Assembly (NCBI GenBank): GCA_022703155.1
Contig: JAKLEH010000004.1
Location: 1-46,579, forward strand
DNA from: Patescibacteria group bacterium
GTDB taxonomy: Bacteria; Patescibacteriota; Patescibacteriia; 2-12-FULL-60-25
Reading direction: 5' to 3'
Length of the DNA: 46,579 bases
Within the stretch, counting starts at the first letter, position 1. The number at the start of each line of letters is the position of its first letter. The position numbers and the translations under genes are program-made. Of this stretch, positions 41,213-46,559 are shown one piece after another. Below the pieces are notes generated by a model. The model saw nothing but the letters and a program-made list of their open reading frames with translations. It ran no database searches and had not been told where the DNA came from.

Positions 41213-42406
41213 TCAGAGCCTCCCCTTCAATTTCTTCTCGAATCTCCATGCGTTGATGCGATTGGAAAAGATGACGGTCAAACCGGCCACGATCGATTCG
41301 GTGGAGCCCACGGCGGCCAATATCCAACCGTTTGACATGAAGCCGAATACGGCGGCCAACATGCCCATGAACGGGGCCATGGACGCGCCTAAAATCAAAC
41401 CCAAACGCGCTGGATTGGTGAAATCTTGAATCAGCGCCATCTTCATGACCGACATCTGTCCCAGTTTGACCTTTTTCTGTTTGACCAACTCGGTCACGTT
41501 CCGCTTGTACATGCCCACGCTCTGGATGGCCGTGGTAAGCGACAGCGCGACGGCGGAAAAACCGAACACCGCGCCGGCCGTCAGGACCAACCCGCGGTGC
41601 AGCAACGGGTCGATCATCAAGGCACCGAACGTGGCGAGGGCGAACACGGGCACCAAAATGAATCCGCGTTTGGCCAACTCCTTCCATGCGAAACCCGAAC
41701 CGCGCAACGCCATGAGCTCGGCCGCTTCGCCCATCAAATCGTCGGCCGAGGCCGCGAACAGTTTGCCGATGCCGCTTGCGTAATGTTCCAGCACGTGCGC
41801 TATCGGACCCACGAACAACAAAGCCTTGATAATCGATTGCGCGATTTCCGTGCGCTCGTTGGCGTTGTCGTTGACCACGCGGTGCACGATGTAATCCACG
41901 GCCAAAGGATAGATGATTTCCGAAAGCTCGGTCATGAGCCGTTGTTCTTTGGCGCCAATGCCTACGTTATCCTCGTCCACCAACACCAGGCGCTTGAAAC
42001 GCAGACGCTCATGTTTGATGATCGAAAGGCCGTCGTCCAAATCCGCGCCCTTGGACGCGGCCAAACGTTTGTCATCGGCCGTGAATACGGGCTGGTGGTT
42101 ATCGCGCAAAAACTGCGGCAACCATGTGAGGATGCAATTCTTCTGCGAATACAACGAGATGTTGCTCACGGCTTGCAGCACGCGCTCCGGCGTATGCGTG
42201 GTGGTGCGCACGCCGATGGCGAAACCTCGGGACAGCAGGTCGCGCAATTCCTCGCGCGTCCCCGGCCTCACCTTGAACAAATAGCGCAACTCGAGCGGCA
42301 AAAATTCGTCCCAATCCACTTCCTGCGGATGCGAAACCACGTCCACTTTATACGTGCCGAGCTTGGACTTAAGCGGCGGTTCGGTTTGGCGTTTGAAAAA
42401 TTTCAT
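41213..42406 (-). CDS. Hypothetical membrane protein, ~397 aa
   Basis: The first ~250 residues are cytosolic-looking, with a beta/alpha domain opening with basic residues and a His-Glu-Arg...Val-Leu-Val-Asp-Glu-Asp segment (~130-150). Then four hydrophobic helices (~255-275, ~280-300, ~335-355, ~358-380) and a basic tail. I recognise no family. The start could be 42404-42406, seven bases after a TAATAT box, or three codons earlier at 42415. A stronger extended -10 lies at 42435, so a short leader is also possible. Confidence 0.82.
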   Translation of the reverse strand: MKFFKRQTEPPLKSKLGTYKVDVVSHPQEVDWDEFLPLELRYLFKVRPGTREELRDLLSRGFAIGVRTTTHTPERVLQAVSNISLYSQKNCILTWLPQFLRDNHQPVFTADDKRLAASKGADLDDGLSIIKHERLRFKRLVLVDEDNVGIGAKEQRLMTELSEIIYPLAVDYIVHRVVNDNANERTEIAQSIIKALLFVGPIAHVLEHYASGIGKLFAASADDLMGEAAELMALRGSGFAWKELAKRGFILVPVFALATFGALMIDPLLHRGLVLTAGAVFGFSAVALSLTTAIQSVGMYKRNVTELVKQKKVKLGQMSVMKMALIQDFTNPARLGLILGASMAPFMGMLAAVFGFMSNGWILAAVGSTESIVAGLTVIFSNRINAWRFEKKLKGRL

Positions 42407-42434
42407 CAGTCCCATATTATTGTTGGCAAAATCG

Positions 42435-43475: not shown

Positions 43476-43552
43476 GGACGCCTAGCTCAGTTGGTTAGAG
43501 CATCTCGTTTACACCGAGAGGGTCGGGGGTTCGAGTCCCTCGGCGTCCACCA
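43476..43552 (+). tRNA. tRNA-Val(TAC)
   Basis: Acceptor GGACGCC/GGCGTCC, anticodon arm TCTCG-TTTACAC-CGAGA (TAC), T arm GGGTTCGAGTCCC, CCA encoded. Confidence 0.96.
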
Positions 43553-43617: not shown

Positions 43618-43646
43618 TTAAAAAGCCGCCCCTTGGTGGGGGCGGC
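43618..43646 (-). terminator. Intrinsic terminator of the helicase gene
   Basis: On the minus strand GCCGCCCC/GGGGCGGC is followed by T residues, 12 bases after the stop. Confidence 0.88.
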
Positions 43647-43657
43647 GAGAAGAGAGT

Positions 43658-45700
43658 TCAATAATCCAATAGGTCCCGCCTGATCATTTCCAATCCCTGG
43701 TTGTGCAGGGTTTGGACGCGATGCGGACTGGTCATGAGGATGTTGTCCGCGATATTCTGGCACGAGTGCTCCTCGCCCTCTTCGAAGCCGTAACGCAACC
43801 TGACTATCCAAAGCTCGAGGTCTTCGTCCTGTTCTTGGGCCAAGATTTCGCGCACGCGGCGGATTTGGCGCACCAAGTCCACTACTTCCTCCAACCCGTC
43901 CTCGCCGTCCGGCCTCTCCCCCAGCGCGAACCACATCTCACGGAAACGTTCGCACTCGTTCTCGTTCGAGGGCGGCCCGGAAGCGGTGGCTTCGCGCACG
44001 GCCAAACGATCGTGTTCGCAATCGTCATGGCAACACCTGTCGGCCAAAAGCAGGTTGGCCGCGCCCTCGGGGAACAGGCGCGACAGCATCTTGAGGTACA
44101 TGGCCGACACCGGCCGATAGCCCAAATGCCGCATCAGATGGTCGGCCCGGCCCGTAAACAGCTCGTGCCTAAAGAGCAGGTTGCGGAAACGGTTGAACGA
44201 AAGCGGCTGCCGCGGATCGTATTCCGGATGCGACATGAGCACTGTCCGGGCTTGCGCGTCGTCCTTCCGGTCGAGCAGCGGCTTCTCCACGCGGTGCACC
44301 AGCAGGATACGCGATTTGAGCTCCACCTCCTTGACCGGATGCGCGCGCGGATGGCGTTCGAGTTTGTGGACTTCGTAATGGCCGTGGCTGGTCGGTTTGG
44401 CGCCCAACAGGTCACCGGCTTCGTACTCCTCCAAATCCGGCGCGAGCAGCTCCATGGGCATGATGGGCGGCTTGACCAGGTCGCGCGGCACGATCATGAA
44501 GATGCGTGCCTCGGAATCGCCGTCACGGGTCAACACGCGGCAAAACTTTTGCGTGGACTTGACCATGGAAACCGAAGGCGCCAAATCGATGAGCAGCTTG
44601 CAATGCGGCGAATCCCAACCTTCGACCAAGACGTTGACCGAAACCAAGGTGTCGATCACGTCCTTCTCGAAGCATTCGAGCAGCCGTTCGCGTCCCGGCG
44701 TCTCGCCCAAGATGAGCGCGGGCGCGGGCGCGATGCGCGGCCGGTGCGTTTGCAGGTATTTGACCAGGTCGTACGCCTGTTGCCGCGAGGCGCAGGTGAT
44801 GAGCGCCGGGGTGCGCCGGTTTTCCTCGTTGTAACGGAAATCCTCCACGGCCTTGAAGAATGGCGCGCCCGACATGAGGCGCCCCAGCGTCTCTTCCTGG
44901 TAATCGCCTTTTTCGATTTGGATGACCGAGCCGTCCGCGTCCACCTCCGCGACCCACACCCTGAGCGGCGCGAGCAGTTCCATGCCGATGGCCTCTTGGA
45001 GCGAGAGCTCGTGGACGAGCGCGGGAAAAAACCTGGCCAAAGCACGGCACGCGTCGTAATTGGGCGTGGCCGTCAGTGCCAACCGCACGGCCATGGGGTC
45101 GAAGGCGCACTTGAGGTAATCCAAGCGGAATTGCGTCATGGCGTGATGCGCCTCGTCCGCGATGACCAAGCCGGAACCGGCGATGGCCGGCGGCACGCAA
45201 CCCGCCCGATGGCGGCGATTCATCATTTCATACGTGGTCACGTTCACGCCGAACGGCACGACTTCTTCGTATTCTCCCGTGAACCGGCCTACCAACACCT
45301 GGGGCAGCTGCTCGCGCAAACTGCGGCAAGCCTGCTCCACCAGCGTAAGCGTATTGGTTATGAACGTGGTCGTAAGCCCGGTGCGGGCGATGAGGTACCC
45401 GGCAATCACGGTCTTGCCCGTGCGGGGCGGAAGGATGATGCGGCCGTAATTGGAGAAGTCTTCGGCCTTGACCGAACACTCCCGCAAAAAATCGGCCAAA
45501 TCTTCGAACACGCCCGTTTGGATGGGGCGCAATTCGCGCGTGGACCGCAACACGTCCTGGGTCACCGAGTCGTCCAAGCGCATGGTCGCGCTGATGAGGC
45601 GGCTGGCCATGGGCGCGTCGATCTGGTCCGGCAAAAGGCGCACTTCGCAAGCCGTGGCGCCGCCTCCAGGACGGTCGCCGTCAAGGTGTTTTAGGGCCAT
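43658..45700 (-). CDS. Superfamily 2 helicase with C-terminal sigma-70 region-4-like domain
   Basis: DNA/RNA-dependent ATPase motor of the ResIII/XPB-like kind. Motif I Pro-Pro-Arg-Thr-Gly-Lys-Thr is at 91-97, motif II Asp-Glu-Ala-His at 182-185, motif III Thr-Ala-Thr-Pro at 210-213, and motif VI-like Gln-Lys-Phe-Cys-Arg-Val-Leu near 388. Past the helicase core (~450-620) is a region with Cys/His pairs (CCHDDCEH at ~566-573) that may bind zinc. The last ~48 residues read Leu-Arg-Tyr-Gly-Phe-x-x-Gly-Glu-Glu-His... Asn-Ile-Ala-Asp... Arg-Val-Gln-Thr-Leu...Gly-Leu, closely matching the helix-turn-helix of sigma-70 region 4. The start has AGGTG five bases upstream. Confidence 0.9.
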   Translation of the reverse strand: MALKHLDGDRPGGGATACEVRLLPDQIDAPMASRLISATMRLDDSVTQDVLRSTRELRPIQTGVFEDLADFLRECSVKAEDFSNYGRIILPPRTGKTVIAGYLIARTGLTTTFITNTLTLVEQACRSLREQLPQVLVGRFTGEYEEVVPFGVNVTTYEMMNRRHRAGCVPPAIAGSGLVIADEAHHAMTQFRLDYLKCAFDPMAVRLALTATPNYDACRALARFFPALVHELSLQEAIGMELLAPLRVWVAEVDADGSVIQIEKGDYQEETLGRLMSGAPFFKAVEDFRYNEENRRTPALITCASRQQAYDLVKYLQTHRPRIAPAPALILGETPGRERLLECFEKDVIDTLVSVNVLVEGWDSPHCKLLIDLAPSVSMVKSTQKFCRVLTRDGDSEARIFMIVPRDLVKPPIMPMELLAPDLEEYEAGDLLGAKPTSHGHYEVHKLERHPRAHPVKEVELKSRILLVHRVEKPLLDRKDDAQARTVLMSHPEYDPRQPLSFNRFRNLLFRHELFTGRADHLMRHLGYRPVSAMYLKMLSRLFPEGAANLLLADRCCHDDCEHDRLAVREATASGPPSNENECERFREMWFALGERPDGEDGLEEVVDLVRQIRRVREILAQEQDEDLELWIVRLRYGFEEGEEHSCQNIADNILMTSPHRVQTLHNQGLEMIRRDLLDY

Positions 45701-45756: not shown

Positions 45757-45785
45757 AGCTAACAACAAAAAAACCATTTTGTCAA
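45757..45785 (-). promoter_or_regulatory. Probable helicase promoter
   Basis: TTGACA (45780-45785, minus), 17 bases, TTAGCT (45757-45762, weak -10; TAGCTG at 18 bases is an alternative). The leader is ~50 bases. Confidence 0.5.
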
Positions 45786-45923: not shown

Positions 45924-46559
45924 ATGAACGAACAGGAAATCCTGGGCATGCTCGGCAAAGTCGGCGCGGTCATCACCAACAGCCATGTGGTTTACACCTC
46001 GGGCAAGCACGGTTCGGCCTACGTCAACAAAGACGCGGTCTATCCGTACACGGCCATCACTTCGCGTTTGTGCCGCAACATCGCCAAACGTTTTTTGGAC
46101 GAACAGGTGGAAGCCGTGATCGCGCCGGCCATCGGCGGCGTGATCCTGGCGCAATGGACCGCATATCGCCTCTACAAATTCCGCATGCGCGAAGTCCTGG
46201 CATTGTATGCGGAAAAGGCGGATGACGCGTTCGTCATCAAACGCGGCTACGACAAGCTTATCGCCGGCAAACGCGCGCTCGTGGTCGAGGACGTGCTGAC
46301 CACGGGCGGTTCGGTCAAAAAAGTCGTGGACGCCGCGCGCCAGGCCGGCGCTTTGGTGGTGGGCGTGGGCGCGCTCTGCAACCGCGGCGGGCTCACGGCC
46401 CAAACCCTGGGCGTAGCGCGCCTCGAAGCCCTGGTCAGCGTCAAGCTCGACGCCTGGGACGCGGCCGATTGCCCGCTTTGCGCGCGCAACGTGCCCATCA
46501 ACGCCAGCGTGGGCAAAGGCCGCGAATTCCTGGAACGGCAACAAAGACCTCAGACGTGA
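45924..46559 (+). CDS. pyrE: Orotate phosphoribosyltransferase
   Basis: Couples orotate and PRPP to give OMP in pyrimidine synthesis. The PRPP loop Val-Val-Glu-Asp-Val-Leu-Thr-Thr-Gly-Gly-Ser is at ~114-124, the catalytic loop Lys (Glu-Lys-Ala-Asp) at ~94, and an N-terminal Tyr-Thr-Ser-Gly-Lys-His (~24-29) matches the orotate-binding start. At 211 aa it is normal in length. A Cys-x-x-Cys near the end (Asp-Cys-Pro-Leu-Cys, ~191-195) is found in some bacterial PyrE proteins. The start at 45924 follows AAGGCGG weakly; no promoter stands out in the 220-base gap upstream, which otherwise holds only the divergent helicase promoter. Confidence 0.93.
   Translation: MNEQEILGMLGKVGAVITNSHVVYTSGKHGSAYVNKDAVYPYTAITSRLCRNIAKRFLDEQVEAVIAPAIGGVILAQWTAYRLYKFRMREVLALYAEKADDAFVIKRGYDKLIAGKRALVVEDVLTTGGSVKKVVDAARQAGALVVGVGALCNRGGLTAQTLGVARLEALVSVKLDAWDAADCPLCARNVPINASVGKGREFLERQQRPQT

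Follow-up and report, generated by a model that had tools for sequence, protein, structure and literature searches.

The 46,579-nucleotide stretch of patescibacterial DNA (the window; contig G000:C34 of a 1.23 Mb genome in 55 contigs, 98% complete) carries a gene for a 680-residue protein (P0001; 43658-45700, minus strand, start ATG, stop TGA) in which a superfamily 2 (SF2) motor is followed by a tail resembling region 4 of sigma-70 factors. Region 4 is classically the part of sigma that docks on promoters and on RNA polymerase. The locus raises two questions, namely whether the resemblance is genuine and, if so, to what the tail might bring the motor.

The gene and its surroundings

Third-position GC reaches 0.805 on the minus strand, in line with the neighbouring genes, so the antisense 663-residue open reading frame at 43703-45694 on the plus strand is dismissed as a shadow. 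By eye, a promoter-like TTGACA-17-TTAGCT lies upstream of the gene (45757-45785, minus strand), and directly past the stop codon stands a hairpin resembling an intrinsic terminator, GCCGCCCC..GGGGCGGC with T5 behind it (43620-43646, minus strand). The gene is solitary and its surroundings are ordinary chromosomal, with a converging tRNA-Val(TAC) on one side (43476-43552, plus strand) and a divergent pyrE on the other (45924-46559, plus strand; orotate phosphoribosyltransferase-like, named from its own sequence). No operon partner emerged when the family loci were compared, as no neighbouring gene recurs among them; nor was a defence-gene neighbourhood found around the fusion gene, and no pbe or dnd neighbours were noticed. 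Comparison with an empty site was impossible, as pyrE is present in just one of eight genus mates and the neighbourhood there differs. Elsewhere in the window, Pfam matches nothing in a 400-residue protein (41213-42415, minus strand) that, read by eye, seems to have membrane segments close to its C-terminal end. In one proteobacterial MAG, a SNF2/DUF3670 helicase gene (L070:3161-6022, plus strand) directly follows the family member.

The motor

The motor core spans residues ~55-400 (44501-45538, minus strand) and is defined by Pfam, Foldseek and invariant motif columns. Pfam places ResIII at residues 56-214 (E = 1.7e-9) and Helicase_C at 292-388 (E = 3.1e-5), both above their cut-offs. The earlier note on this DNA had proposed a complete SF2 motor with motifs at residues 91-97, 182-185 and 210-213, and these positions are exact: the minus strand encodes the Walker A motif PPRTGKT (residues 91-97, 45410-45430), DEAH (182-185, 45146-45157) and TATP (210-213, 45062-45073), to which a motif VI, QKFCR (384-388, 44537-44551), can be added. 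Walker A, DEAH, TAT, motif VI and the two RecA-like domains are those of a ResIII-type SF2 helicase or translocase. The motif columns are invariant in an alignment of 15 full-length relatives (34-66% identity), and the motor is intact.

The best structural matches of the motor are RadD (YejH; 8h5y, 7.4e-16), TFIIH XPB (RAD25; ~1e-14, 7.8e-15) and SauUSI (7e-14). RadD and XPB have the same two-RecA-domain SF2 core, but their accessory parts are unmatched in the window protein, and the sigma-4 tail is the latter's own addition. Among profiles, PbeA of the PbeABCD phosphorothioation defence system is the best in PADLOC (3e-14) and the Dnd-linked restriction helicase TIGR04095 the best in NCBIfam (3.6e-11), followed by XPB (3.1e-9) and RadD (2.5e-8). 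PbeA joins an N-terminal PLD domain to its ResIII motor, whereas Pfam finds no PLD in the window protein and the PbeA match is confined to the motor segments. No nuclease domain was found in the window protein; PbeA likewise has no PD-(D/E)XK nuclease (PMC6459918). NCBIfam equivalog cut-offs are missed by far, with 32.7 of 720 bits for RadD and 35.9 of 610 bits for XPB. Judged by these similarities, the motor probably works like those of the RadD, XPB and PbeA types and belongs to none of them.

A middle domain (residues ~463-592; 43925-44314, minus strand) is conserved in the family, has no Pfam family and is apparent by eye also in the distant relatives L046, L050 and L118. It contains a Cys/His cluster, CCHDDCEH (residues 556-563; 44012-44035, minus strand), that had been taken to suggest a zinc module. 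The cluster exists, but it is not conserved among relatives, the 66%-identical sister included, and we have therefore dropped the zinc reading.

The tail as region 4

The tail of ~75 residues at the C-terminus, with its upstream spacer (residues 598-680; 43661-43909, minus strand), was delimited by model and profile. On its own it is inconspicuous: Pfam Sigma70_r4 (PF04545) gives no hit in the window protein, and NCBIfam sigma models on residues 631-675 attain E = 0.0084 at best. A profile made from RpoD sequences only barely separates the tail from shuffled sequence (11.4 bits against 10.3 for the best shuffle). These values are what might be expected if generic helices resembled region 4 by chance, and as far as sequence goes the window tail cannot decide its own identity; its relatives settle the question. 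A family profile combining the relatives' RpoD region 4 with other family tails, with the window protein and its sister left out, scores the window tail at 24.0 bits, while none of 2000 shuffles exceeds 10.9. Full-length relatives match Sigma70_r4 with E values of 6.9e-15 (L096), 1.7e-14 (L009), 7.7e-14 (L008), 4.9e-13 (L011), 2.1e-11 (L007), 3e-11 (L065), 9.5e-10 (L061), 1.8e-9 (L010) and about 5-8e-7 (L044 and L045); all of these, together with L056, are above the Pfam cut-off. Tail-less homologues and a tail made of mere generic helices, which the earlier note had named as grounds for abandoning the idea, are thus not what the relatives present.

Structure prediction points the same way. 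The AlphaFold2 model of the tail, folded with the family alignment as input and hence in part dependent on the sequence evidence, has a pLDDT of 91.4 and contains helices at residues 600-621, 628-637, 647-655 and 659-679. The best 50 PDB matches listed for it are all sigma region 4, whether free, bound to -35 DNA or as part of holoenzyme, and sigma-4/beta-flap-tip chimeras are included. The best match has an E value of 0.012 and a probability of 1.00, and superposition on 1ku7 (sigma-4 on -35 DNA) yields 1.2 A over 50 columns. The predicted fold is therefore that of region 4, helix-turn-helix included. The tail yielded a region 4 fold in the prediction and no Sigma70_r4 match in Pfam. The suggestion that the last ~48 residues follow the region 4 pattern stands as to homology and needs amending in two details: the turn of the helix-turn-helix is longer by one residue than in RpoD, and the homology extends ~25 residues further upstream.

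The strong family tails take their best scores from RpoD and RpoS models, and the L063 tail matches the RpoD model with 98.9 bits, the spacer before region 4.1 included. Since the strong tails score best on these models and keep the spacer, the module derives from a primary-type sigma factor such as RpoD/SigA. Sigma70_r2 and Sigma70_r3 have no Pfam match in the window protein or its relatives, and with regions 2 and 3 missing, in contrast to primary sigma factors, the fusion protein is not itself a sigma factor.

A rare family with one architecture

A tree of the motors (38 rows) unites 21 tailed proteins in a single clade with support of 100/100, so the fusion is conserved in homologues. Its hosts are Patescibacteria (Uhrbacteria included), Myxococcota and other proteobacterial MAGs, and in nearly all family members a tail of equal length occupies the same position. 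None of 103 tail-less SF2 relatives (80 viral sequences from IMG/VR and 23 others) has a sigma-4 domain. Because of the profile score, the structural matches, the 100/100 clade and the domain-free tail-less relatives, SF2 plus region 4 is one conserved architecture, and the window tail is, by sequence and by predicted fold, homologous to sigma region 4. At the level of the family, the relatives' E values, the profile and the structural matches refute chance resemblance, which for the window tail itself we regard as extremely improbable.

The gene stands alone, and its distribution is sparse and patchy. Of nine genomes in the genus a single one has the fusion. At class level, about 12 of 381 genomes contain a full-length family member, and at phylum level 8 of 380 yield some match at E <= 1e-20, tail-less ones among them. 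The tailed L046 (G067) falls outside the main clade, beside its tail-less sister L050, where a second capture of the tail or its loss is possible. A motor-less remnant (L056:1309-2238, plus strand; G127:C41), which retains the middle domain and a clear sigma-4 tail beside ABC transporter genes, fits gain and loss of the family.

A phage source was rejected, since none of the 80 SF2 relatives from IMG/VR carries the tail; a tblastn search against phages and plasmids matched the motor alone, never across more than 80% of the query, and the viral L033 proved to be a spurious short match. Mis-binned contigs, as an explanation of Myxococcota and proteobacterial members, were rejected for L061, L062, L070 and L072 by GC: these loci lie at 69-71%, unlike the patescibacterial loci at 43-62%, and for that reason the four members look resident in their genomes.

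Distant relatives from the same phylum hold other C-terminal modules in the slot of the tail, INT_rpt repeats for example, which points to a slot that behaves as an exchangeable targeting module. Among SF2 motors of the wider group, L047, L048 and L117 show C-terminal 'W.GW..FLG' repeats in the sigma-4 slot; INT_rpt is found in L047 and L048.

Divergence of the tail

Mean pairwise identity is 51% for the motor and 25% for the tail, and the window protein and its sister are 76% identical in the motor and 40% in the tail. By these figures the tail evolves faster than the motor. The sister's tail scores 2.4 bits against the family profile, and in L057, L058, L064 and L069 sequence similarity is almost gone.

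Residues R584, E585, R588 and Q589 (E. coli numbering) are the canonical contacts with the -35 element. The window tail has P, H, Q and T at these positions, and because none of the four contacts is kept it probably no longer targets the canonical -35 hexamer. Over 24 tails, R584 is present in 9, E585 in 10, R588 in 12 and Q589 in 15, and all four are kept in four (L063, L044, L045 and L096); some family tails may, to judge from these residues, still read -35-like DNA. Retained more often than these contacts are the RFG[IL] loop and the hydrophobic core, with F or Y at 563 in 18 of the 24 tails and a hydrophobic residue at 598 in 23. The loop and the core residues are linked to beta-flap binding.

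What the tail may do for the motor

The reading that we prefer, with a probability of roughly 0.45, is that of a stand-alone accessory dsDNA translocase with a captured primary-type sigma-70 region 4 as its targeting helix-turn-helix, acting in a defence or repair setting. The tail would recruit the motor by gripping DNA and positioning the ATP-driven domains, which would then travel along the duplex and strip or remodel bound material. The target sequence of the tail would have drifted between lineages, and the setting would be genome defence or repair, as opposed to that of a housekeeping transcription factor. DNA targeting is favoured because the motor is defence-helicase-like, C-terminal modules are swapped, the tail evolves fast and sigma-type helix-turn-helix modules have precedents. 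A rare, patchy gene in ordinary chromosomal surroundings and with no conserved neighbour also speaks for it. On the other side, the full RpoD-like residue set in L063, L044, L045 and L096, with its four -35 contacts, argues that promoter reading or polymerase binding has been retained in these four, and neither a nuclease domain nor a defence-gene neighbourhood was found. The defence role in particular leans on profile similarity of a widespread motor type.

The precedents come from defence proteins. BrxL and a larger DndH variant are ATP-driven and hold sigma-related modules that the authors describe as helix-turn-helix, DNA-binding parts (PMC12839542, PMC10853773). DndH, however, is a HerA-FtsK motor, not SF2, and in its variant and in BrxL the module is internal or N-terminal, whereas the tail here is C-terminal. 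BrxL for its part is an AAA+ protein, not SF2. MzaA, the 'sigma factor' of the MZA anti-phage system, has a C-terminal region 4 close to the family tails (98.1 bits in L063), but the match covers the L063 tail only and its total score falls well short of the 800-bit cut-off, shared neighbours were not seen, and the NCBIfam MzaA profile has no match in the window protein.

Alternatively, the sigma-4 tail could dock on the beta-flap and bring the translocase to initiating or stalled RNA polymerase, in the manner of RapA, HelD, Mfd or XPB; the earlier note had likewise thought of recruitment to promoters or polymerase, perhaps for coupling repair to transcription or for remodelling polymerase. 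This is a credible possibility, though not one on which we would rely. The strong tails score best on RpoD and RpoS models and keep the spacer before region 4.1, the loop and core outlast the -35 contacts, and the chimeras with the beta-flap tip among the structural matches fit docking as well. Motors of RNA polymerase are a known theme (PMC7749167, PMC8666675, PMC8501970). Docking sits less easily with the strong divergence of the window and sister tails, and one would expect a polymerase factor with a housekeeping role to be distributed less patchily.

Were the tail to bind polymerase, the fusion would work like RapA, HelD and Mfd, none of which is known to have a sigma-4 domain. Mfd has TRCF and RNA polymerase-interaction domains that Pfam does not find in the window protein. 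It is missing from seven of seven fusion-bearing genomes (among 96 relatives), but nearly all relatives are without it (Fisher p = 1). Across the family's 41 genomes, G000 among them, no TRCF domain scores above the Pfam cut-off; because this holds with or without the fusion, the absence of Mfd is uninformative, and replacement of Mfd by the fusion was discarded as an explanation. The more specific proposal that the translocase displaces sigma-4 from the beta-flap with its own region 4 and opens, clears or recycles transcription complexes seems to us possible, though less likely than not. If true, a single protein with a captured sigma fragment would do the work of Mfd or RapA, or of XPB within TFIIH.

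A further reading would have the tail as the vestige of an old capture that, in several lineages including that of the window, now has no target and only stabilises or auto-inhibits the motor. The nearly vanished similarity in L057, L058, L064 and L069, the loss of all four contacts in the window tail and a tail identity half that of the motor all suit it. We nevertheless judge it unlikely, as the fold is still predicted confidently (pLDDT 91), nearly all members keep a tail of constant length and place, and several tails match region 4 almost perfectly.

Novelty and significance

No publication on an SF2/region 4 fusion was found in the literature searched, which included few subscription journals and no database domain architectures. 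The parts are known, and within that literature their combination appears undescribed. The remark that the protein is unlike any SF2 fusion holds within the same bounds, with the reservation that sigma-type helix-turn-helix modules are known from other defence-related proteins (PMC10853773, PMC12839542, MzaA).

Other unusual region 4 proteins came to light in passing. Three patescibacterial proteins of ~450 residues (L148:1105-2496, minus strand; L122:691-2031, plus strand; L152:263-1663, minus strand) combine Sigma70_r4 and RNA_pol_A_CTD, far above cut-offs, and are possible regulators made from two RNA polymerase docking parts. In another Patescibacterium (L151:1313-2539, plus strand), an N-terminal Sigma70_r4 is joined to HARE-HTH. 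Locus L150 (G034:C2:455000-473000) holds, within 12 kb, two ResIII-type SF2 helicases (551 and 783 residues) and a sigma-like protein (409 residues), as well as a 763-residue protein whose N-terminus is rich in Cys and whose residues 138-188 match Sigma70_r4.

The conserved fusion of region 4 to an XPB/RadD-like motor provides a defined family in which translocases aimed by a piece of sigma, at DNA or at RNA polymerase, can be tested. It also shows sigma region 4 put to use beyond sigma factors, in bacteria whose genomes are very small.
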